The notes under the pieces are model-generated. The model was not told where the DNA came from. It searched no databases and worked only from the letters and a program-made list of their open reading frames with translations. A DNA stretch of 32,630 bases from positions 1 through 32,630 of the IMG/VR virus record IMGVR_UViG_3300044825_002579. One strand, 5' to 3'. This DNA comes from a virus. Both the position numbers and the translations under genes were made by a program. Position 1 is the first letter of the stretch; each line of letters opens with the position of its first letter. Of the stretch, positions 7,300 to 32,630 are shown piece by piece.

Positions 7300-8583
7300 T
7301 TAGACTAGAAGGTCGTCTGCTTCGACGGTTTCTGGTTGAAGGAACAGGTCTGACAGATCGGTGGTATCGGCTCTCACCCCTGTCTCATCGGCCGTCAGAC
7401 CTGTTCCGAATCTTTTATTCAAGAAGTCGATGTATTCCCCTTCTGCTTCCATAATTATACAGTCGATGCCCTCTGCACGAGCGGCAACGGCCGTAGTTCC
7501 ACTGCCCGCGAATGGATCAAGAACAACACCACCGGGCGGTGTGATGTGCCGTATCAGATGCCTCAGAAGTCCAACTGGCTTTACGGTTGGATGCTCTGAT
7601 CCACCGCGGTCGGTTTTGCTGGCTTTCGGGTGATACAGTAAAGAAGGGCAATCGTCAGAGGGGAAAGCGTTGAAGAACCGTGCGGTGGAATTTGAATAAA
7701 CACGCTCAGGTTGCCTGGTCAACCCTACATCATCCGCTGAGTTGTTCACTTTTTCAGCCACAAAGCTGCCACCACTTTGCGGAAACAAATCAATTACTTC
7801 TGACGACCCATCGTGAAACAGATTGGCTGGGTAGCGACCGTTCTCATCAACAACTTGAACAGTAGACGCATTCATCTTGGAAAGGCCCCAAGATTGCCCT
7901 GATGTATCTTTTTCTCGCCTTCCTCTGTTCATGCTTCGTAGTTGATTTGCATCACTGACCGAATCGAGTGGAACCCGACATCCGTCGATGTTCACGGCAC
8001 CTACACCATGTTTGATGATGTTCGCGATATAGGTCTTCTCAGAGATCGGTCGCTGTGCCAGGTAGATCGGTTCCAAAGCTGGCTTCTGGGATTGGGTTCC
8101 ATACTTCCAGCCTTCCCATTGCTCGATTAGCGCAGGATCAGCGCCAAGTTTCGTGAGGTCACGTTCAACATCCTTAGCCTTGGGAAATCCATTACCGTAG
8201 CACCAGCCGTGCATCGGGTGCATAATGAAGCCAGCCGTTTCCATGGCGACGGCTTGCCAATGGCCGGTTCTTGCCCCGCTGAACGCAAAGCAGAAGCCAC
8301 CAGGAAGCAGAATATCGTGGATCAAGCGCCAGAAATCAGGGTCGCGCTCGATGCCGGTGCCATCCCAGGTGTGGCCCATAAAACCGGCAGAAAGACGTGA
8401 GAATGAACCATCGTTCCCTTCTGTCTTAGCGGCAGCAGCGCCCTTTTTACCGAAGCGCTTCTCGATACTGGTCAGTCCGTAAGGCGGGTCGCAGACCACC
8501 GAATGAACGCGGACACCCTGGTCGATCAGCTTCTTGAGGCTGATGCGGTTGTCACCGGGATATAGGGTCACTGCTGATTGCAC
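7300..8583 (-). CDS. DNA methyltransferase, DPPY type
   Basis: 427 residues, GTG start with AAGGA six bases upstream. The catalytic motif DPPY is at residues 32-35 and the SAM-binding motif DPFAGSG at ~356-362, preceded by PTVKPVGLLRHLIR. DPPY before FAGSG is the beta-class order of N6-adenine (or N4-cytosine) methyltransferases. No restriction endonuclease is nearby, so it is likely an orphan enzyme that protects or marks phage DNA. The last 25 residues carry two acidic-hydrophobic patches, TDLSDLF and the terminal DDLLV. Both recur at the ends of other proteins in this operon (see findings). Confidence 0.88.
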   Translation of the reverse strand: MQSAVTLYPGDNRISLKKLIDQGVRVHSVVCDPPYGLTSIEKRFGKKGAAAAKTEGNDGSFSRLSAGFMGHTWDGTGIERDPDFWRLIHDILLPGGFCFAFSGARTGHWQAVAMETAGFIMHPMHGWCYGNGFPKAKDVERDLTKLGADPALIEQWEGWKYGTQSQKPALEPIYLAQRPISEKTYIANIIKHGVGAVNIDGCRVPLDSVSDANQLRSMNRGRREKDTSGQSWGLSKMNASTVQVVDENGRYPANLFHDGSSEVIDLFPQSGGSFVAEKVNNSADDVGLTRQPERVYSNSTARFFNAFPSDDCPSLLYHPKASKTDRGGSEHPTVKPVGLLRHLIRHITPPGGVVLDPFAGSGTTAVAARAEGIDCIIMEAEGEYIDFLNKRFGTGLTADETGVRADTTDLSDLFLQPETVEADDLLV

Positions 8584-8594
8584 GGCGAATCCTT

Positions 8595-8607
8595 CACTCT
8601 AAACGTG
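8595..8607. promoter_or_regulatory. Operator copy before the methyltransferase gene
   Basis: CACTCTAAACGTG matches the palindrome outline CAC-N7-GTG, with a weaker core than most copies. It lies in the 78-base gap between thyX and the methyltransferase, just upstream of the AAGGA ribosome site. No convincing -35 is seen on the leftward strand, so it may stop or repress read-through rather than cover a promoter. Confidence 0.45.
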
Positions 8608-8661
8608 TTTTTACCGGTTGCCGTGCATCTTGGCAAGAAGTTATGCACAAGTCTGGGTTTC

Positions 8662-9615
8662 CTACGGCATCAAACCGATCTTCCGGAAGAACTCCATGGT
8701 CTCACGCTCAGACATCCCTTCTGGCTCAGGCCACCCGTCACTTTCACGATCGGGCTTCCAAGAAGAGAAATAGACTTTCAGTGCCTCGATCTCCATTCGG
8801 GAGAATGTGGCAGCATGAAGCCGGTAGTCCTCGAACGCTCGATAGGCAAACGGCACCCATGTTCGCACGATGTCACAGATCGTATCGGCATAGGTTCTGA
8901 TTTCGAACTGAGCATGGCTGTCAGCACGAAGACGCAGGAAATGGAACAGGTTGTGAAGGTCCGTCTTCCAGTACCACTGCGTGTAAATGTTGGTCGGCAG
9001 ATTCATTCGAGCGAGTTCCCGAGCCAGGCCAAGCTTTCCGGCTTCTTGGTCTTCCCGCATCAGTTCTTCATACGTCGCATAGGATCGAGCGGCATCGCTC
9101 CGAAGCATATCAAGAACAAGCTGCGCCTCTTCACCGGCCAGTACGGTCCCCCTGCCCTGGTTGTTAATCTGTGATTGTGCTGCAAGGTCTTCTTCGGCCG
9201 GGATGTAGAATTCGTTGTCCAAGATCGAGTAGCGGGCCGAGAGTTCATTCACGTTTGCGGTGCGGTGCCGAATCCACTGTCGAGCGACGAACACCGGCAG
9301 TTTGACGTGAAGCTTGATCTCGCACATTTCGAAGGGCGTGGAATGCCAATGGCGCATCAGGTAGCGGATCAACCCTTCATCCTGAGACACGCTCTTGGTG
9401 CCGTTCCCATAGCTAACACGAGCAGCTTGAAGGATCGCGGCATCATCGCCCATGTAGTCGATCACCCGAACAAACCCATGATCGAGCAAGGGGACGGCAT
9501 GGCCGAGGATGTTGTCGAGCGCTTCGACTTTGGTTCGAGTCAGGCGGTATTCGTCGGTAGCCATTGTTTTCCGAGTGGTCGGATAGAACGGGTCTGGATT
9601 GCTGATGTTACGCAT
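8662..9615 (-). CDS. thyX: Flavin-dependent thymidylate synthase ThyX
   Basis: 317 residues from ATG 9615 (AAGGA upstream); a longer in-frame opening overlaps the previous gene. The ThyX signature RHR-X7-S is present at residues 116-126 (RHRTANVNELSARY), with Asn at the position that is commonly Ser after RHRTA. Other family features are STPFEMCEIKLHVKLPVFVARQW before it and NLFHFLRLRADSHAQFEIR after it. It makes dTMP from dUMP using FAD, methylene-tetrahydrofolate and NADPH. It supplies thymidine for phage replication and fits the other nucleotide-pool genes of this operon. Confidence 0.95.
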   Translation of the reverse strand: MRNISNPDPFYPTTRKTMATDEYRLTRTKVEALDNILGHAVPLLDHGFVRVIDYMGDDAAILQAARVSYGNGTKSVSQDEGLIRYLMRHWHSTPFEMCEIKLHVKLPVFVARQWIRHRTANVNELSARYSILDNEFYIPAEEDLAAQSQINNQGRGTVLAGEEAQLVLDMLRSDAARSYATYEELMREDQEAGKLGLARELARMNLPTNIYTQWYWKTDLHNLFHFLRLRADSHAQFEIRTYADTICDIVRTWVPFAYRAFEDYRLHAATFSRMEIEALKVYFSSWKPDRESDGWPEPEGMSERETMEFFRKIGLMP

Positions 9616-9625
9616 GGCGGTGTCC

Positions 9626-9865
9626 TTATACAAAGAGGTCTGAGAGATCAGTGGATGAAGCCTTGGGCGCTGCCTTGGCCTTCGGAGCGGGACGCGGAGC
9701 CATATGCTCGGCCTTGAATTTCTCTTGGGCGCTGTCGATCGCCTCAGCGAGATCAACTGACAAGATACCGACAGACCACTTGGCATTGCGGCGGGCTTCG
9801 ACGCGCCAGAAACCGGCGCTCGGGACGCAGATCAACCTAAGCTGCCCTGGCGGTGGAAGGGTCAT
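9626..9865 (-). CDS. Unknown 79-residue protein with LFV C-terminal tag
   Basis: 79 residues from ATG 9865, which overlaps the upstream stop (ATGA); an ATG at 9877 is also in frame. The N-terminal half looks like a small beta domain (LRLICVPSAGFWRVEARRNA). It is followed by a helix, a Pro/Ala/Lys-rich linker (PRPAPKAKAAPKA) and the terminal STDLSDLFV. The linker-plus-tag design suggests the last eight residues are meant to reach a partner. TDLSDLF is repeated in the methyltransferase C terminus. Confidence 0.65.
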   Translation of the reverse strand: MTLPPPGQLRLICVPSAGFWRVEARRNAKWSVGILSVDLAEAIDSAQEKFKAEHMAPRPAPKAKAAPKASSTDLSDLFV

Positions 9866-10251
9866 TTGTTGACCCATCTACGGATCATCGAGACGGCGTT
9901 CTGGAAGCGATCTGTCTTCGCCTTGAGAGCCTGCTTGACGAGATCGTCGATGTCCTTCCCGCGGGCATCCCACTCAGCCTTGCACATGCCAAGCACGTTC
10001 AGCGCGAATTCCTGCGACGGGAAGACCCCAAGCACCTGGTCAAACTCAACCCGGTCAATGCTCCATCCGTTGCTCTCCAAGACCACCGATTTCCGGACGG
10101 ACTTTGCCCTGACGACGCGCCACCGGATCGAGCGGCTATAATCATGGTCACAAGCGCTGTTCCAGCCGACTGCCATTGAACCATCGCCGACGATGAGCCA
10201 GTCACCGGGCTTGATGTCAGCGGCCGTATAGAAGCCTTTGAAGTCGGTCAT
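9862..10251 (-). CDS. Unknown 129-residue protein
   Basis: 129 residues from ATG 10251, in an ATGA overlap with the gene before it. Not recognised. The first half is beta-rich (IKPGDWLIVGDGSMAVGWN, RWRVVRAKSVRKSVVLES) and may be a small barrel. The C-terminal half is helical and charged (CKAEWDARGKDIDDLVKQ). It ends in an ATGA overlap with the 79-residue tagged protein, so the two are translated together. Confidence 0.65.
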   Translation of the reverse strand: MTDFKGFYTAADIKPGDWLIVGDGSMAVGWNSACDHDYSRSIRWRVVRAKSVRKSVVLESNGWSIDRVEFDQVLGVFPSQEFALNVLGMCKAEWDARGKDIDDLVKQALKAKTDRFQNAVSMIRRWVNK

Positions 10252-10415
10252 TCTTCTATCCTCGCTCGGTTCAAGCGTCGACGTTCGAGCCGTCGCGAAA
10301 GCAGCTTGTTCGCAGCACATTTGGTCCACCCGGCCAGCGGACGACGCGACCAGAGTTCGTAGAAGTGGCCGTGTTTCTCAGCACTCTTTTTCGGATCACG
10401 AGTCCAAGGTCTCAT
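10248..10415 (-). CDS. Small basic protein
   Basis: 55 residues; ATG overlaps the stop of the 74-residue gene (GTATGA) and the stop overlaps the next ATG. The sequence is strongly basic, with an Arg-rich end (LLSRRLERRRLNRARIEE) and aromatic residues near the start (GHFYELWSRRPLAGW). It could bind nucleic acid; that is only suggested by charge. Overlaps on both sides support it as a real gene. Confidence 0.6.
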   Translation of the reverse strand: MRPWTRDPKKSAEKHGHFYELWSRRPLAGWTKCAANKLLSRRLERRRLNRARIEE

Positions 10416-10636
10416 ACCAGCAACTCCGTCAGATCGACGACCGAGACGACCGGCGAATAGGCGAAGTGTTCACCAATGGCCGAGACGATCGAGGGATGCC
10501 GCTTCTGGGCACAGATGAAGCCCTCATCAAGGTTACGTCGAATATGAGCCTGGAACTCGCCGTTGTTAAACTGGATGTTGCAGGCGATGATTCCATTGGC
10601 GCGCATCGCAGCTTCGAGGTCTTCGAGACGAGTCAT
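10412..10636 (-). CDS. Unknown 74-residue protein with LLV C-terminal tag
   Basis: 74 residues starting in an ATGA overlap with the upstream gene. Predicted helix-strand-helix (RLEDLEAAMRANGIIACNIQFN). It ends VVSVVDLTELLV, one of the seven LLV/LFV C termini of this operon; TTG CTG GTA encodes the last three residues, and the GTA overlaps the next ATG. No family recognised. Confidence 0.62.
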   Translation of the reverse strand: MTRLEDLEAAMRANGIIACNIQFNNGEFQAHIRRNLDEGFICAQKRHPSIVSAIGEHFAYSPVVSVVDLTELLV

Positions 10637-10962
10637 GCAGCAACCTCAAGCTTACAGCGCATCCAGTGATTTTTAAGGCTGTTCCACGCATCACGAGACA
10701 TCGGGATCACGTCGATCCAGTCGCCGTCCGCATTCATAACATCAGCCCACCAGTCGCCGCCGTATTCATTGATCGACTGACCAAACTTGCCGATGTGGCC
10801 GCAGATTTTTGCGCGCCGAAGAACTGTGATGACAGACGAATATCCTTTGGTAAAGATCACCGGCTCGCACAGGTCCAGCCGTTCGCCGTCCTTGGTCTTG
10901 CGGATGACGCAAAGCCGCAGCCCGCGCGCCTCGATCGGGATACCAAATTCATTCTCATTCAT
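10633..10962 (-). CDS. Unknown 109-residue protein
   Basis: 109 residues, ATGA overlaps at both ends. Beta-rich with many aromatic residues (SINEYGGDWWADVMNADGDWIDVIPM), suggesting a compact domain. No catalytic motif is evident. It lies between the macro-like gene and the 74-residue tagged gene. Confidence 0.6.
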   Translation of the reverse strand: MNENEFGIPIEARGLRLCVIRKTKDGERLDLCEPVIFTKGYSSVITVLRRAKICGHIGKFGQSINEYGGDWWADVMNADGDWIDVIPMSRDAWNSLKNHWMRCKLEVAA

Positions 10963-11327
10963 TTCTTCGCTTCCTCAAGGATGCGCCATTCGACCGAGTA
11001 GGTGACGTTCTCAGGCAGACCGGCTTTGATGAACAGCGGTTTGATCTGGTCGACCGTGTAGCCCGCCAGACCGCAGCCGATGGGTGTCAGCAGGAACTTC
11101 ATCCGGGGATTGTCCCGAGCGAACTGAACGAAGGTATTGATGTGCGCCTCGATCACCCAGAGAGGCAACACTTCGAGTTCGAAGCCCTTGGTCGGGATTG
11201 CATACGAGCGGCCGGTCAAGCCCTGACCGATGCCGCGCTTTGCCCCATAGACGCGCTTGGCATAGAGCGCCGCACCTTTACCGTGCCGCCCAGCCAGGTT
11301 CGAACCGAAGACGAAGATGTCGCTCAT
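10959..11327 (-). CDS. Macro-domain-like protein (A1S_2505-type)
   Basis: 122 residues from ATG 11327, overlapping the upstream stop; a longer opening to 11363 lacks support. The sequence FVFGSNLAGRHGKGAALYA, then GLTGRSYAIPTKG and LTPIGCGLAGY, matches the phage-related A1S_2505 group I remember, which has the glycine-rich loops of macro domains. Macro domains bind or hydrolyse ADP-ribose and its conjugates. Phage versions could counter NAD or ADP-ribose based defence, but no activity can be claimed from sequence alone. Confidence 0.72.
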   Translation of the reverse strand: MSDIFVFGSNLAGRHGKGAALYAKRVYGAKRGIGQGLTGRSYAIPTKGFELEVLPLWVIEAHINTFVQFARDNPRMKFLLTPIGCGLAGYTVDQIKPLFIKAGLPENVTYSVEWRILEEAKK

Positions 11328-11689
11328 ACCAGCAACTCCATGTGCTTCGCCCGAATGCGCCACAGTTCCTTCACCTGGCAGACCGAGTTCAGGCTTCCGA
11401 ACTTGTCGCTCAGACCGGTCGACTCCAGCAGTATCGGGATCAGGTGCGAGTTCTCGTCGATGTATTGATCCCAGAGGCGCGCATACAGGGCTTCAACCTC
11501 TTCCCGGTTGACCGCGGGAACCCCCTTTGCCCGACGCCACTCGTGGCCGGTGGAGCCGTCAGGCAGCACCTTGGCAGCTTGATACTGCTCTTCAATGCTG
11601 CGGCCGTTCACCTTGGCGCAGAACGCCGAGAAGCGCTTGTCACCGTGCGTCGAGCATTCGCGGAAAGGGGCTACACCGACGCGGATCAT
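11324..11689 (-). CDS. Unknown 121-residue protein with LLV C-terminal tag
   Basis: 121 residues; ATG overlaps the upstream TGA. The pattern FSAFCAKVNGRSIEEQYQ, then WRRAKG, ARLWDQYIDENSHLIPILL and LSDKFG, is one I have seen in phage and bacterial proteins encoded near macro-like genes, without a known function. Mostly helical. It ends AKHMELLV, with GTA TGA overlapping the start of the macro-like gene, so the pair is translationally coupled. Confidence 0.65.
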   Translation of the reverse strand: MIRVGVAPFRECSTHGDKRFSAFCAKVNGRSIEEQYQAAKVLPDGSTGHEWRRAKGVPAVNREEVEALYARLWDQYIDENSHLIPILLESTGLSDKFGSLNSVCQVKELWRIRAKHMELLV

Positions 11690-11856
11690 TGCAGTCCGAC
11701 CTTCGGGATCAGTCCATCCTTGGATGGCATCAACCTACGCCGCATGAGCATGGACGCGGAGTAGTTCGCCTGAACATGGGGTGGCATGGCTGCGATGACT
11801 TCCTCGTCAGTCTGCTTCTCATACTTGTGGTCAGGATTGGTCGGTTTATCGGTCAT
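11686..11856 (-). CDS. Small unknown protein, 56 residues
   Basis: 56 residues linked by ATGA overlaps on both sides. N-terminal half is acidic and helical (KYEKQTDEEVIAAMPPH); the C-terminal half is basic (LMRRRLMPSKDG). No family recognised. It lies between two LLV-tagged proteins and is itself untagged. Confidence 0.6.
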   Translation of the reverse strand: MTDKPTNPDHKYEKQTDEEVIAAMPPHVQANYSASMLMRRRLMPSKDGLIPKVGLQ

Positions 11857-12227
11857 ACGAGCAGCCCCTCATCCTCATCAGCGGCGGCAACAGGCTTCCC
11901 GCCCACCGGCACAACCTTCACCCCAAGACAGCGTTCCAGGGCCTCGTGCAGCGTGTCGCAGGGGCCTGAGCGCACCCAGTCGTAGTAGAACTTGTTCAGC
12001 CTGATCCCGCATTCCCAGGTGCCTTCTTCGGCTTCTAGGCGATCGTTCATCTTCGCCTTGGAGTTGGGCGACCGGATGTAAATCCGATACATGCCAAACT
12101 CTTCCATCAACTTCGCCAGATCGTCGATCGAGGCTATCTCCATGCCCTGAAAGGGCTTGAAGCTATCCAAGGTCACATGGTCGATCGGCTTTTGTGCTGA
12201 TTGAACCCGCTTGGCTGCTCTCCCCAT
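11853..12227 (-). CDS. Unknown 124-residue protein with LLV C-terminal tag
   Basis: 124 residues from ATG 12227. The start has only a weak ribosome site and lies 13 bases after the previous stop. A basic N terminus (MGRAAKRVQ) is followed by a mixed domain (EEFGMYRIYIRSPNSKAKMN, TWECGIRLNKFYYDW). A flexible Gly/Ala/acidic linker then leads to the terminal DEDEGLLV. The domain is not recognised. Confidence 0.65.
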   Translation of the reverse strand: MGRAAKRVQSAQKPIDHVTLDSFKPFQGMEIASIDDLAKLMEEFGMYRIYIRSPNSKAKMNDRLEAEEGTWECGIRLNKFYYDWVRSGPCDTLHEALERCLGVKVVPVGGKPVAAADEDEGLLV

Positions 12228-12239
12228 TGCAGCATCCGA

Positions 12240-12626
12240 TCAGACGAAGAGATCGTCGAAGCTGGTTCCGACAAACGCGCTCATGGGCTTATCTTCACCC
12301 AGAAGATCATGGTCAGCGTCTTCCATGATGTCGAGCAGCGGACCTGGATGACCGCCACCCATCTGAGCCGAAGCCAACGCTGGGCTGAACCCACTATCTC
12401 TCTGCGCGACAACACCGCCGTCAGGACGAAGGATGCCGCTCGCCTCGTCGAAGATCAGATCGGTCTCTACGGCCTTACCACCTGGATAGGCAGCGTCGAG
12501 TTGTTCAAGCAGAACCGCTTTTTGGAGCGCCAGGCTCATCATCGGCCCATCTGACCAGAGTCGCGTCTCAATAACCGGGTTGCCTTTGGTGGCGCGGATC
12601 GCAGCTTTCAGGGTGCCGAGTTTCAT
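12240..12626 (-). CDS. Unknown 128-residue protein with LFV C-terminal tag
   Basis: 128 residues, ATG overlapping the stop of the 53-residue gene. Folded N-terminal part with alternating strands and helices (KLGTLKAAIRATKGNPVIE, LQKAVLLEQLDAAYPGG). A long Gly/Pro-rich, probably disordered segment follows (QMGGGHPGPLLDIMEDA) and ends SAFVGTSFDDLFV. The disordered tail before the tag resembles the linker in the 79-residue tagged protein. Confidence 0.65.
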   Translation of the reverse strand: MKLGTLKAAIRATKGNPVIETRLWSDGPMMSLALQKAVLLEQLDAAYPGGKAVETDLIFDEASGILRPDGGVVAQRDSGFSPALASAQMGGGHPGPLLDIMEDADHDLLGEDKPMSAFVGTSFDDLFV

Positions 12627-12784
12627 TCTTCGTCCTCAAGGTTCATGATCGAAGCGAACCCATCGTTCCACGAAAAATGGTCGGCTTCTTCGGTTTGCAG
12701 ATCGTAGGGGTTGGCGCTCTCAGGCTTTCCAGCGATCGCGGCGTCAGCACCCTCTTCATAGGGATCGGTGTCCAGGGTTCTCAT
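12623..12784 (-). CDS. Small acidic protein, 53 residues
   Basis: 53 residues. The ATG overlaps the stop of the GapR-like gene (GTATGA) and its TGA overlaps the next ATG. Very acidic (DTDPYEEGADAA, TEEADHFSW, ending NLEDEE), with no basic cluster. The run of aromatic and acidic residues suggests an interaction peptide or DNA mimic, but nothing specific can be assigned. Confidence 0.6.
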   Translation of the reverse strand: MRTLDTDPYEEGADAAIAGKPESANPYDLQTEEADHFSWNDGFASIMNLEDEE

Positions 12785-13047
12785 ACGAGCAACGCATTCT
12801 CGTAGAGTTCGAGGACAGCTTCTTCCTCAGCGATATCATCCGGCTTGCGCTTCCGGCGCTTGAGGACCAGGCGCATAACCTTGGTGTCGTAGCCCCGACC
12901 CTTGGCCTCAGCCATCAGTTCCTTTTTCTGTTCAGCAACGTCCTTCGCTTCGCTGTCCAGTTGCTCGAAGCGTTCGACGAACTGACGCAGTTCATCCGCT
13001 GTGACGGCATAAGGATCGTCGCCGCTGTTGTGACCTTTTCCAGCCAT
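12781..13047 (-). CDS. GapR-like nucleoid protein (DUF2312)
   Basis: 88 residues. The pattern ADELRQFVERFEQLDSEAKD, then KKELMAEAKGRGYDTKVMR and VLKRRKRKPDDIAEEEAVLE, matches the GapR/DUF2312 family, a small coiled-coil protein common in Alphaproteobacteria that binds overtwisted DNA ahead of polymerases. A phage copy could help replication or transcription of phage DNA, or compete with host GapR. The C terminus ENALLV differs from the ALG-type ends I recall and matches the tag of six other proteins in this operon. Upstream lies an operator at 13072-13084. Confidence 0.85.
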   Translation of the reverse strand: MAGKGHNSGDDPYAVTADELRQFVERFEQLDSEAKDVAEQKKELMAEAKGRGYDTKVMRLVLKRRKRKPDDIAEEEAVLELYENALLV

Positions 13048-19710: not shown

Positions 19711-19716
19711 TTTCTG

Positions 19717-20842: not shown

Positions 20843-20881
20843 TCAACAGTTGACTTGCATCCGCGAATCACTTTAGATGTG
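20843..20881 (+). promoter_or_regulatory. Rightward promoter with two palindromes
   Basis: TCAACAGTTGA (20843-20853) overlaps the -35 TTGACT (20850-20855). After 17 bases the -10 TTAGAT (20873-20878) lies within the operator CACTTTAGATGTG (20869-20881). Directly upstream of the 97-residue gene and the small-membrane-protein / outer-membrane operon. Confidence 0.78.
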
Positions 20882-24335: not shown

Positions 24336-24496
24336 TGTGGGCCGATCTTAATTTGGACGGAACTTCACAACGTCTTGAGGTTCAAGAAATCGCATACAAA
24401 GGGATTGTCCTTTGCGCAACATTGCTACGCCCTAACCTTTCTACTGTTGTGGTAGATATGAAGCAGGTAGATAGCCTTTCATGGCGACGCAAATGA
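24332..24496 (+). CDS. Small protein before the ATPase, 54 residues
   Basis: 54 residues from ATG 24332 (second ATG at 24335), with GGGGAAG upstream. Short strands with few charges (RLEVQEIAYKGIVLCATLLR, TVVVDMKQVDSLSW). It overlaps the ATPase start by 16 bases and is read in a different frame, so the two are probably made together. Too short for a family call. Confidence 0.52.
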   Translation: MMWADLNLDGTSQRLEVQEIAYKGIVLCATLLRPNLSTVVVDMKQVDSLSWRRK

Positions 24497-25695
24497 TCCG
24501 TCAACGCCCGATCAATCTCGGGGCTGGCGCAACTATCGCACCGCGCTACCTGACTCGGCACATCGGTATCTTCGGCGCGACCGGCACCGGTAAGACGACA
24601 AGCGCCACTTCCATCGTGAAGCAACTGGCCTGCCCTGTGATCGTCCTAGATGCCAAGGGTGACCTCGGGGGCCTCGGGGACGTGGTGGCACCGTGGGAAG
24701 GCGCACAGATGAACGTGGCCCGTCTAGGGTGTGACCTGATGTGTCGCGCCCTTGGGCTATCTGAGGCTCAATCCGGGGCACTGGATATCGCTTTGGCTTG
24801 GGCTGAGGATAGCGGGCAGGCCTGTGCAACCTTGACCGATCTCAGGGCCGTCCTGAACCGCATGGGCTACGCTGATCTCTCGAACTACGGTCTGGTATCC
24901 CTGCAAAGCGTTGCAGCCGTCCAGCGGGCTATCCTGCGCTTCCAGCGGGCCGCGCCATGGGCCTTCGGAAGCAATGAATTCGACCCCTTCAAATGGCAGG
25001 CCGGTCGCACCATCATTCATGCCCCCGATCTGGTGGCCGTCCACGGGCTTTATGCGACCTTTGCCGCCCGGTTGCTTGAACAGGTGTATCAGGGCCTAGA
25101 CGAACTCGGGGATGCCGGGGCACCGGGCCTAGCGATCCTGATAGATGAGGCACACCTGTTGTTCCAAGACGCCCCTATGGCCGTGACACGCCGCTTGGAA
25201 CAGATTGTTCGGTTGATCCGGTCGAAGGGCGTCTGTCTGATCTTCGTTTCTCAAGCCCCGTCCGACCTTCCCAGTGCGATCCTCGGTCAGCTTGCTACTC
25301 GGGTGCAGCATGGCCTTCGGGCTGGCACTCAGGCGCAACAGGCTGCTGCCCGTGCGGCGGCTGAAACGATGCCAGGCGATGTGACTGCGGCGATGATCCT
25401 TGACTTGGCTATGGGTGAAGCACTTCTGTCGACCCCTGACGCTCAGGGAAAACCCATACCGGCCTTTCTGGTCAAGGTGCAGCCGGTCAGCATACCCAAT
25501 CGCGTTTTCTCTGACGTGCCGCCGTCCGATCACTCGCCAAAGCGAGTTGATATTTCTCCGACTGGCCCCCGTTTCGATCTGATACCCCCAAATCCTTGCA
25601 TTCCAGTGGTTCAACCGACCAAGCGCCGAGCCTGGTATTTCTGGCCTCTGATCCTAGCCTCGGTACTGTATGGACCGATGATCGTTTTCGGTTGA
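24481..25695 (+). CDS. HerA-like P-loop ATPase with C-terminal membrane anchor
   Basis: 404 residues. Walker A GATGTGKT (residues 32-39), then VIVLDAKGDLGGL, Walker B LAILIDEAHLLF (~217-228) and FVSQAPSDLP (~255-264). This set matches the HerA/FtsK-type ATPases of the DUF853 group, which move DNA or protein as hexamers. Residues 385-404 (YFWPLILASVLYGPMIVFG) form a terminal membrane helix after a Pro-rich linker of about 50 residues, so the ATPase is likely tethered to the inner membrane. Role unknown: DNA translocation, defence or antidefence are all possible. No NurA-like nuclease lies nearby. Confidence 0.8.
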   Translation: MATQMIRQRPINLGAGATIAPRYLTRHIGIFGATGTGKTTSATSIVKQLACPVIVLDAKGDLGGLGDVVAPWEGAQMNVARLGCDLMCRALGLSEAQSGALDIALAWAEDSGQACATLTDLRAVLNRMGYADLSNYGLVSLQSVAAVQRAILRFQRAAPWAFGSNEFDPFKWQAGRTIIHAPDLVAVHGLYATFAARLLEQVYQGLDELGDAGAPGLAILIDEAHLLFQDAPMAVTRRLEQIVRLIRSKGVCLIFVSQAPSDLPSAILGQLATRVQHGLRAGTQAQQAAARAAAETMPGDVTAAMILDLAMGEALLSTPDAQGKPIPAFLVKVQPVSIPNRVFSDVPPSDHSPKRVDISPTGPRFDLIPPNPCIPVVQPTKRRAWYFWPLILASVLYGPMIVFG

Positions 25696-25723
25696 CTCAG
25701 AGGTGCGAATCACGTTTGATGTG
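25692..25723 (+). promoter_or_regulatory. Promoter with operator, driving a noncoding RNA
   Basis: TTGACT (25692-25697), 17-base spacer, TTTGAT (25715-25720); operator CACGTTTGATGTG (25711-25723) covers the -10. The usual TCAACNGTTGA palindrome is absent. Predicted start near 25727, at the head of a gene-free structured region. The -35 overlaps the ATPase stop codon. Confidence 0.75.
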
Positions 25724-25726
25724 CTT

Positions 25727-26051
25727 GTTGAGTGTAGATAGAGAGACTATCAACCATCCTGGAAACGGGTTCCGGGATGGAAGAGGGAGAAGAGAATGAA
25801 GCGCTAGATGTGACCTGAAAACGTCCGGCTTTAGGATGACAGAGTAACGGGGCGGAAAGCCCAATGTAGATGCACCGAACCTTCGGAGTGTGCCGACCAT
25901 GAAACAACTGTCCACCGGGGCGTAATCCCGCGAAAACTACCTTAAATCGGTATCATCACATCATCGGCCAATAGGCACCCCGCGCGAAAGCGCATCATTA
26001 ATCCCCAGTCGGGATTCGGCCCTGGTAGCACAAGTTGCACCGGGGCCTTTT
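25727..26051 (+). ncRNA. Structured noncoding RNA, ~325 nt, unknown class
   Basis: A gene-free stretch between a dedicated promoter and a terminator. Local hairpins seen by eye: GATAG/CTATC (25737-25751); an 11-bp stem CCATCCTGGAA/TTCCGGGATGG with one G-U pair (25754-25780); GGGC-GGAAA-GCCC (25850-25862); CGGG/CCCG (25916-25930); GCGC-GAAA-GCGC with a GNRA loop (25982-25993); then the terminator. GNRA-type loops and many stems point to a folded RNA. No tRNA, tmRNA, RNase P or 6S pattern was recognised. A 13-codon reading frame from ATG 25777 has no ribosome site. Confidence 0.68.
26018..26051 (+). terminator. Intrinsic terminator of the noncoding RNA
   Basis: Stem GGCCCTGGT (26018-26026) with ACCGGGGCC (26039-26047), nine pairs including one G-U, 12-base loop, then TTTTC. 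It is followed 12 bases later by the next promoter, so the RNA is a separate unit. Confidence 0.82.
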
Positions 26052-26062
26052 CATATTCTAAA

Positions 26063-26100
26063 TCAACCGTTGACTTTGGGTGATTCCCACGTCTAAGGTG
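26063..26100 (+). promoter_or_regulatory. Rightward promoter with two palindromes
   Basis: TCAACCGTTGA (26063-26073) with the -35 TTGACT (26070-26075); operator CACGTCTAAGGTG (26088-26100). The -10 is less clear (TCTAAG at 16 bases, or the AT-rich TTATAG after the operator). A further GTGATT ... AATCAC inverted repeat follows. Drives six small genes up to 27689. Confidence 0.62.
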
Positions 26101-26130
26101 ATTATAGAGAATCACTAGGGGAACTGTGAT

Positions 26131-26337
26131 ATGAAGCGCCCAGGTTACCGTGAAGCAATCGACTGGATTGCTTATAACGATGATACCGAATGGTTGAAAC
26201 CGAACGATTGGAACAACAACGGTGCAGACCTCTCACCCTCGGTGACTGCCTGCCTGGTCGCCGATCTGTTCGGGGTTGACACTGATCGAGTGACAGCCGA
26301 CCTGAAACGCAAACTTGCCAAAATTGATGGAGAATAA
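26131..26337 (+). CDS. Unknown 68-residue protein
   Basis: 68 residues; GGGGAAC upstream. GYREAIDWIAYNDDTEW and VTACLVADLFGVDTDRVTAD look like a small helical protein of a type common in phages (N-terminal YREA-x-WIA-x-ND). First gene of the 26063 operon. No role known. Confidence 0.62.
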   Translation: MKRPGYREAIDWIAYNDDTEWLKPNDWNNNGADLSPSVTACLVADLFGVDTDRVTADLKRKLAKIDGE

Positions 26338-27693: not shown

Positions 27694-27839
27694 ATTTCTC
27701 CGACGCCCGCCCAGGTGCAGATTTCTCCGACGCCCGGCCGGATTTTATCCTGGTCGGGTTTGTATATTTCTCCGACTTCGCCCTATTTCTCCGACTCCCG
27801 CCCAGGTGCAGATTTCTCTGACGTGCAGATTTCTCTGAC
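27694..27839. repeat. Six copies of ATTTCTCYGAC
   Basis: Copies at 27694-27704, 27721-27731, 27766-27776, 27785-27795, 27812-27822 and 27829-27839, separated by GC-rich words such as GCCCGCCCAGGTGCAG. The last two read TCTGAC, and one is followed by GTG, which makes half of the operator. Two more copies lie inside the end of the ATPase gene (near 25504 and at 25552-25562). Related to the GATTTCTCTGGGGTC repeats at 19474-19576. Confidence 0.78.
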
Positions 27840-27979
27840 GCCCGGCCAGGCGCGGCCCAGGATCGAGGTGGCAGGGCCTTGCAGCTTCCCCCAGGCGCGC
27901 GGGCACATGCGCCCAGGCTCACACGTATATAGGCGCGCATAGGCGGGATTCCATGATCCGATCAGCGGAAACGCATTTT
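27840..27979. other. GC-rich gene-free stretch
   Basis: No gene seen. Very GC-rich (CCCGGCCAGGCGCGGCCCAG, CAGGCGCGCGGGCACATGCG) and then CACACGTATATAGGCGCGC. It resembles the 19577-19710 stretch in composition, in the preceding repeats and in lying just before an operator. Confidence 0.55.
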
Positions 27980-29651: not shown

Positions 29652-29825
29652 ATGGAAATGACAAATCTTTGGGCATGGCGGGATAGCGTGACGCATGGAT
29701 ATCGATGGGTCAAGGAAAGGGAATGCAAAGCCGGTGACGCGAATTCATGGCATACGATTTTCCGCAAGGATGAGCCACACATTCAATTCAGGGTTTCCAA
29801 GGTGAAGCCTAAGCCGATTTTCTAG
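29652..29825 (+). CDS. Small unknown protein, 57 residues
   Basis: 57 residues from ATG 29652 in a TGATCATG junction. Trp-rich (NLWAWRDSVTHGYRWVKERE, NSWHTIFRKDEP) and basic at the end (VSKVKPKPIF). It lies at the end of the cassette, before a strong hairpin. Position and junction support coding. Confidence 0.55.
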   Translation: MEMTNLWAWRDSVTHGYRWVKERECKAGDANSWHTIFRKDEPHIQFRVSKVKPKPIF

Positions 29826-29855
29826 TCCCTTCCCCTCAGTCGACCGACTGCCCTT

Positions 29856-29895
29856 ACCGCCGCTTCCCTTGATCGGGTTGCGGCGGTTTCCGTTT
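29856..29895 (+). terminator. Terminator of the first small-gene cassette
   Basis: ACCGCCGC (29856-29863) pairs with GCGGCGGT (29880-29887), with an inner CCC/GGG pairing and the tail TTTCCGTTT. The same hairpin occurs at 31941 and 32038 after the next cassette. Confidence 0.82.
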
Positions 29896-29898
29896 AAG

Positions 29899-30177
29899 GG
29901 GCTGCACCCGTGCCCCCATGCCCAGGGCTGCACCCGTGCCCCTCTGAGGCCTGCCCTGCCCCCAGGCCCAGGGCTGCACCCGTGCCCCTCTGAGGCCTGC
30001 CCTGCCCCCAGGCCCAGGGCTGCACCCGTGCCCCTCTGAGGCCTGCCCTGCCCCCATGCCCAGGGCTGCACCCGTGCCCCTCTGCGGCCTGCCCTGCACC
30101 TCGGCCATGGGCTGCACCCGTGCCCCTCTGAGGCCTGCCCTGCCCCCATGCCCAGGGCTGCACCTGGTCGCGCCTGG
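29899..30177. repeat. GC-rich tandem array, 46-bp units
   Basis: GGGCTGCACC recurs at 29899, 29925, 29971, 30017, 30063, 30109 and 30155: one 26-bp step, then five of exactly 46 bp. Each unit reads GGGCTGCACCCGTGCCCCTC, then TGAGGCCTGCCCTGC and a variable end (CCCCAGGCCCA, CCCCATGCCCA or ACCTCGGCCAT). Long open frames on the minus strand are products of the repeat and are not genes. The array lies between the cassette terminator and the next promoter. Confidence 0.88.
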
Positions 30178-30202
30178 TCGAAAGGAAAAAGCACGTCAGA
30201 GT

Positions 30203-31984: not shown

Positions 31985-32275
31985 GGGCTGCACCCGTGCC
32001 CCTCTGAGGCCTGCCCTACGGTCGACCGATTGCCCTTACCGCCGCTTCCCTAGATCAGGGTTGCGGCGGTTTCCGTTTGAGGGGCTGCACCCGTGCCCCT
32101 CTGAGGCCTGCCCTGCACCTCGGCCATGGGCTGCACCCGTGCCCCTCTGAGGCCTGCCCTGCCCTGCACCTCGGCCATGGGCTGCACCCGTGCCCCTCTG
32201 AGGCCTGCCCTGCCCTGCACCTCGGCCATGGGCTGCACCCGTGCCCCTCTGAGGCCTGCCCTGCCCTACCCTGTA
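31985..32275. repeat. GC-rich tandem array, 46- to 51-bp units
   Basis: GGGCTGCACC at 31985, 32082, 32128, 32179 and 32230; the last steps are 46, 51 and 51 bp. Units read GGGCTGCACCCGTGCCCCTC, TGAGGCCTGCCCTGCCCTGC and ACCTCGGCCAT. The same family as the 29899-30177 array, with an extra CCTGC. Minus-strand open frames here are repeat products. Confidence 0.87.
32038..32078 (+). terminator. Terminator, copy 2
   Basis: Same hairpin as at 31941, ACCGCCGC (32038-32045) / GCGGCGGT (32063-32070), in the second 97-bp unit, so transcription from the cassette meets two terminators in a row. Confidence 0.78.
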
Positions 32276-32630
32276 GACCCTTCCGCCTGGATGACGCGGA
32301 ATCCGAATGCGCCATGGGGGAGTCCCTTCGGTGACCATGCCCCATGCAAACCCGCAAGGGTGAAACCCGTGGACTCATGACCCTGCTACATGGTGGCCGG
32401 TGACGTGTAGCAGGGTGGATCATGGGGGATGATGCATCATGTAGCAGGGTATAGGCGGGGCCTGGACTAGGGTCTATGGGATAAGCGTTACATATCAATG
32501 CCTTAGACCTGGATCATGGGTGATCATGCGGCCGGATGCATCATGAGGCGCGAAAGATAATCGTTTAATATCAATGACTTGGCTACGGGTCCTTCCCGAG
32601 GGGGGTCGCTGGGGGGCGGGGACACAGACC
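32276..32630. other. Gene-free right end with short repeats
   Basis: No convincing gene in this stretch. CCCTGCTACA (32381-32390) and TGTAGCAGGG (32406-32415) form a 10-bp inverted repeat, and TGTAGCAGGG recurs at 32440-32449. A 25-bp direct repeat starting GATAA and ending ATATCAATG-x-CTT occurs at 32480-32504 and 32556-32580 with four mismatches. Words GATCATG, GATGCATCATG and TGATCATG recur around them. This looks like a protein-binding or packaging region. Confidence 0.7.
32586..32625. other. G-rich tract, possible cos region
   Basis: ACGGGTCCTTCCCGAGGGGG, then GTCGCTGGGGGGCGGGG, directly after the second direct repeat. Similar G-rich tracts lie near the cos site and small terminase gene of many HK97-like phages, from memory. 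The terminase gene itself would be beyond the window, so this is a tentative call. Confidence 0.35.

Follow-up and report, generated by a model that had tools for sequence, protein, structure and literature searches.

Phages carry noncoding RNAs of several kinds (PMC12197685; PMC7567579). The small RNAs described from phages and prophages include OOP, sar, c4, DicF, IsrK, and misc_4 of phi-R1-37, the last being 296 nt long (reviewed in PMC12197685), while IsrK of prophage Gifsy-1, with 217 nt, acts as both sRNA and mRNA (PMC12197685). GOLLD and ROOL are large, conserved, and ornate RNAs that come from phage intervals devoid of ORFs (PMC12286853; PMC7567579), and the RNA anti-CRISPRs (Racrs) are noncoding RNAs that mimic CRISPR repeats and are found in accessory slots, right after a phage promoter (PMC10651486). 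Here, we analyzed a metagenomic virus record from IMG/VR with 32,630 bases (the window, that is, the whole stretch of DNA under study), in which an earlier note had proposed an independent structured RNA under operator control. Like the phage and prophage small RNAs, the interval is a short, predicted noncoding transcription unit within a phage genome; like IsrK, it is linked to transcription termination; like GOLLD and ROOL, it is ORF-less and would give an RNA; and like the Racrs, it lies in an accessory slot with a phage promoter immediately ahead of it. However, no sequence match was found between the unit and the known phage RNAs of PMC12197685, PMC7567579, and PMC10651486, IsrK among them. 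In contrast to the small RNAs, the unit's own promoter (P1) and the next one (P2) both bear the same phage operator, and P2, unlike the arrangement at IsrK, is a separate operator-controlled promoter that follows the terminator. Moreover, whereas GOLLD and ROOL are large and elaborate, the RNA predicted here has about 325 nt, with neither an Rfam match nor excess structure. Racrs mimic CRISPR repeats, whereas for this interval no repeat-like match present in several copies turned up among 289 alphaproteobacterial genomes, a set that may lack the phage's own host and its CRISPR repeats, and it contained no internal direct repeats over 10 nt that could mimic a CRISPR repeat.

The window covers the right-hand portion of a Casjensviridae phage and is syntenic with 23 phages of Rhodobacter capsulatus that belong to cluster RcD (named in PMC8601537). 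Its gene order is RcD-like, running from tail genes through a lysis region and a metallophosphoesterase to a minus-strand block, which includes a DNA methylase and ThyX as in the right-hand half of RcD phages, and then to a plus-strand accessory region that, again as in RcD phages, carries a HerA-like AAA-ATPase. The HerA-like protein has 64-70% identity to the AAA-ATPase of RcD phages, and its gene is located directly upstream of the noncoding unit, with the stop codon inside the -35 region of P1. Within the minus-strand block, at 7300-13047, we also observed that seven of 27 minus-strand proteins share a short C-terminal tail (DDLLV, SDLFV, TELLV, MELLV, EGLLV, DDLFV, and NALLV) encoded by differing codons, and that the corresponding block of RcMcDreamy has the same tails (DELLV, SDLFQ, EGLLV, DDLFV, and NALLV). 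These tails look like a conserved C-terminal docking peptide common to several phage proteins.

Features of the noncoding unit and its surroundings (positions in the window).
Feature	Position	Strand	Evidence or remark
HerA-like ATPase gene	24481..25695	+	Pfam HerA_C PF05872, E 2.9e-64
Promoter P1 with operator	25691..25723	+	exact match to shared phage promoter pattern; 0 expected
Predicted noncoding transcript, about 325 nt	25727..26050	+	no ORF, no 3-base periodicity
11-bp hairpin CCAUCCUGGAA-ACGGG-UUCCGGGAUGG	25754..25780	+	pair probability 0.98
Purine-rich stretch, SD-like GGAG and frame ATG AAG CGC TAG	25781..25807	+	read from the sequence
Possible antiterminator, 5′ arm	25914..25932	+	pairs with 26009-26026, -31.6 kcal/mol
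Possible antiterminator, 3′ arm	26009..26026	+	overlaps the 5′ arm of the terminator
Intrinsic terminator	26018..26051	+	12-bp stem, one bulge, then TTTT; -22 kcal/mol
Promoter P2 with operator dyad	26064..26111	+	GTTGACT at 26069; GTGATTC / GAATCAC arms
First gene after the unit, small protein, phrog_25543	26131..26337	+	PHROGs E 2e-19

P1 comprises GTTGACT at 25691, with a 17-base spacer from TTGACT to TTTGAT, and the overlapping GAATCACGTTTGATGTG. The pattern GTTGACT-N9-GAATCACNTNNGATGTG was present in five copies in the window, four of them exact (20849, 22318, 22724, and 25691) and the fifth, at 19716, with three mismatches, against an expectation of 0.00 (none in 100 shuffles of the window). 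The exact copies other than P1 each directly precede genes. The same architecture was found ahead of accessory-region genes in the RcD phages, where some copies have the full dyad GAATCAC-N7-GTGATTC, and a variant of the arrangement precedes the gene that follows HerA. Because the P1 pattern is exact and is shared with RcD phages, the earlier claim of a dedicated promoter under a common operator is sound, and the unit can be assigned to the phage programme, as had been argued, since P1 is a shared phage promoter. We infer that the operator dyad binds a repressor. Many such promoters have a further dyad, (G)TCAAC(A/T/C)GTTGAC(T), that overlaps their -35 box, with sites upstream of the promoters at 20849, 22318, 22724, and 26069 as well as in RcD phages; P1 does not have its left half.

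With the start of the transcript placed about 7 bases past the -10 box and its end set at the terminator, the claim of approximately 325 gene-free bases, coordinates included, agreed with what we found. Stops occur in every plus-strand frame, no plus-strand ORF of useful length was found in the interval, and the longest ORF is an antisense one of 72 aa for which we found no relatives. The 3-base periodicity of the body was 0.19, as compared to a median of 3.5 (10th percentile 2.1) across 38 coding stretches of this phage equal to the body in length, and to 0.94 in shuffles. With this value, and with no Pfam or PHROG match to the transcript interval, coding in any of the six frames was rejected; read at the sequence level, the body is noncoding and is not a recently broken gene. 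The three-codon frame at 25796-25807, with the purine-rich stretch that contains it, is probably due to chance.

The folding z-score was about -2.7 when the terminator was included, but -0.97 for the body without it (25727-26017) and -0.92 when pairs in that body were limited to a 45-base span, so the folding energy was not clearly below that of shuffles, as it would be for a conserved structured RNA. A z of -6.6 for 25921-26240 was dismissed as evidence of a structured body, since that stretch includes both the terminator and the operator dyad of P2 but just the last 90 bases of the body. For structure, the earlier note had pointed to at least five local hairpins, a count that lost its weight here, the body having 15 hairpin stems of at least 4 bp versus 15.6 in shuffles. 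Among the hairpins it named, the 11-bp stem does exceed chance (seven of 1000 shuffles had one) and is the sole body hairpin to do so, while the others, including the one with a GAAA loop, are at the level expected from composition. Thus, structure beyond one 11-bp hairpin and the terminator is not supported, and of the proposed independent structured RNA it is the independent noncoding unit that stands.

The terminator stem (26018-26047) is followed by TTTTCATATT, in which the T-run is short. In a scan of the plus strand of the window for hairpins of -16 kcal/mol or better with TTTT directly after, 26018-26051 was the sole site, consistent with the strong terminator that had been described as closing the unit. 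A generic terminator scanner did not list it, probably because of the bulged stem and short T-run. The new promoter reported to follow at once is also present, P2 beginning 18 bases past the terminator, and is the position-equivalent of the single post-HerA promoter in RcD phages. The first gene behind it encodes a protein with relatives in RcMcDreamy and in the RcCronus group.

Comparison with the RcD phages showed how the locus differs. In all 15 RcD phages compared, the next annotated gene lies 35-72 bp past the HerA stop (68-72 bp, except for 35 in RcKeef according to its annotation), versus 435 bp here. Each of the five RcD junctions for which sequence was read contains a single promoter, and the gene behind that promoter encodes four different proteins among the five phages. 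The short RcD junctions and differing cargo indicate that the unit is extra material in a variable accessory cargo slot. Based on the sequence comparison, it is an extra cassette in this slot that was seen solely in this phage.

Searches for relatives of the unit gave a uniform picture. Rfam 15 returned no matches at the gathering threshold across the whole window and only chance-level ones (E 4-9) for the interval alone at E <= 10, in keeping with the remark that no known RNA class was recognizable; ARAGORN found no tRNA or tmRNA genes. The BLASTN comparison with phage genomes that had been suggested yielded no homologues of the interval in 50,697 phages, nor were there any in 72,556 plasmids, and promoter-anchored DNA patterns had no match in IMG/VR. 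No homologue of the interval was found in related viral loci and contigs, and the whole records of 13 related viruses together with the 289 alphaproteobacterial genomes gave chance-level matches only (14-24 nt). A 24-nt match at 88% in one record (L120) was rejected as a homologue, being located behind an unrelated ORF, and a 19-nt match in the 289 alphaproteobacterial genomes was the only one there and is what chance would give in so large a set. Searches for close contigs using HerA, the tail protein, ThyX, and the small gene recovered distant relatives and small fragments of close ones, specifically a contig of 9.7 kb whose tail protein is identical (L129) and two short ThyX contigs (L199 and L201), which by position should not extend to the interval. 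Antisense complementarity to the 64 gene starts in the window was not significant (best single p 0.037, overall rank 0.85). Given the Rfam values and the single chance genome match, we found no evidence for the roles of decoy, ribozyme, host-RNA mimic, or counter-defence RNA suggested earlier. With no homologue found, there is no sign of purifying selection, and at present the unit is a lone orphan with no indication of being under selection.

We consider the interval to be an orphan cassette for a phage small RNA, driven by the phage's own promoter, a reading to which we assign a probability of roughly 40%. As judged from its sequence, the gene-like transcription unit, composed of a promoter with operator, a noncoding body, and a terminator, is real, and like known small-RNA units it has its own promoter, its own intrinsic terminator (with a short T-run), and no protein-coding content; its absence from the same site in relatives is likewise apparent from the genomes. 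In the mechanism we propose, the self-contained cassette would occupy a hypervariable accessory slot downstream of the HerA-like gene in a Casjensviridae phage of the RcD type and would be switched on, presumably when the phage repressor is absent, together with the genes that share its promoter and operator. We infer that the RNA is made, stable, and trans-acting, with a small regulatory RNA that functions during infection being the most likely product, over a large folded ribozyme-like RNA; it would act on an mRNA or sRNA through base pairing, or else through protein binding. The same unit may instead be a relic or filler, the cargo gene having been lost or replaced in a fast-changing slot, such that a transcribed RNA without function is left whose role would at most be to insulate HerA transcription from the next operon. 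The lack of homologues and of excess structure is consistent with this, as is the variation of the slot among relatives, and the hairpin and SD-like stretch, with ATG AAG CGC running immediately into TAG, would match the beginning of a gene since lost, ATG AAG CGC also being the first codons of the gene at 26131. However, residual codon periodicity is absent and no protein relative was found in the frames tested, which argues against a recently broken gene, and the promoter, strong terminator, and improbable 11-bp hairpin are all still there; on balance we regard a relic as somewhat unlikely.

A cis-acting role seems more doubtful still. Here, the body would be an attenuated leader transcribed from P1, in which a candidate antiterminator helix, mutually exclusive with the terminator, could block termination, and readthrough would supplement transcription from P2 of the small-gene operon that begins at 26131. 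The strength of the helix was matched in only 24 of 2000 and 13 of 2000 shuffles under two controls, frequencies that are optimistic because the helix was found by inspection, and when pairing was restricted to the terminator arm the result was ordinary (261 of 2000). The lowest-energy fold of a transcript ending at 26030 includes the helix, while in the complete RNA the antiterminator fold, at -47.7 kcal/mol, is 2.5 kcal/mol weaker than the terminator fold (-50.2). Against attenuation, the closeness of P2, with its own operator, to the terminator would render readthrough largely redundant, and neither an Rfam riboswitch nor a leader peptide beside the helix was found. A novel phage RNA whose terminator can be switched, controlled by the phage repressor from an accessory or counter-defence slot and acting on a host defence or RNA regulator, is very improbable in our view, and we rate marginally lower again the idea that the product is a protein of fewer than 30 aa or the minigene ATG AAG CGC TAG. 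The SD-like GGAG does lie at a proper distance from the ATG at 25796, and the interval has short frames, MEEGEENEALDVT and MKQLSTGA among them, but it shows no 3-base periodicity and no family match, and frames this short are expected by chance. Returning to the small-RNA cassette, production of a functional RNA would mean that the variable slot downstream of HerA in RcD-like phages accommodates RNA cargo besides small proteins, and the locus would then be open to testing in R. capsulatus, a model bacterium for which more than 20 related phages have been isolated.

Additional repeats were observed further along the window. A gene-free stretch at 27694-27850 contains an array of TTTCTCCGAC / TTTCTCTGACG repeats, which is possibly an origin or iteron region, and the same kind of array (TTTCTCTGACG) is located at the equivalent place in RcD phages. 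An RcD gap first suspected to be the counterpart of the noncoding unit (L009 7007-7410) was in fact this TTTCTCTGACG repeat region. Similar arrays, formed by TTTCCCCGACG or TCGGAGAAA, are present behind HerA in more distant viral contigs (L018, L019, L021, L023, L025, and L028). Finally, GC-rich repeats of the form GTGCAGCCC...GGCCTC...GGGGCAC at 29745-30194 and 32036-32338 open long spurious frames, and right-end repeats have been reported for RcD phages as well (PMC8601537).
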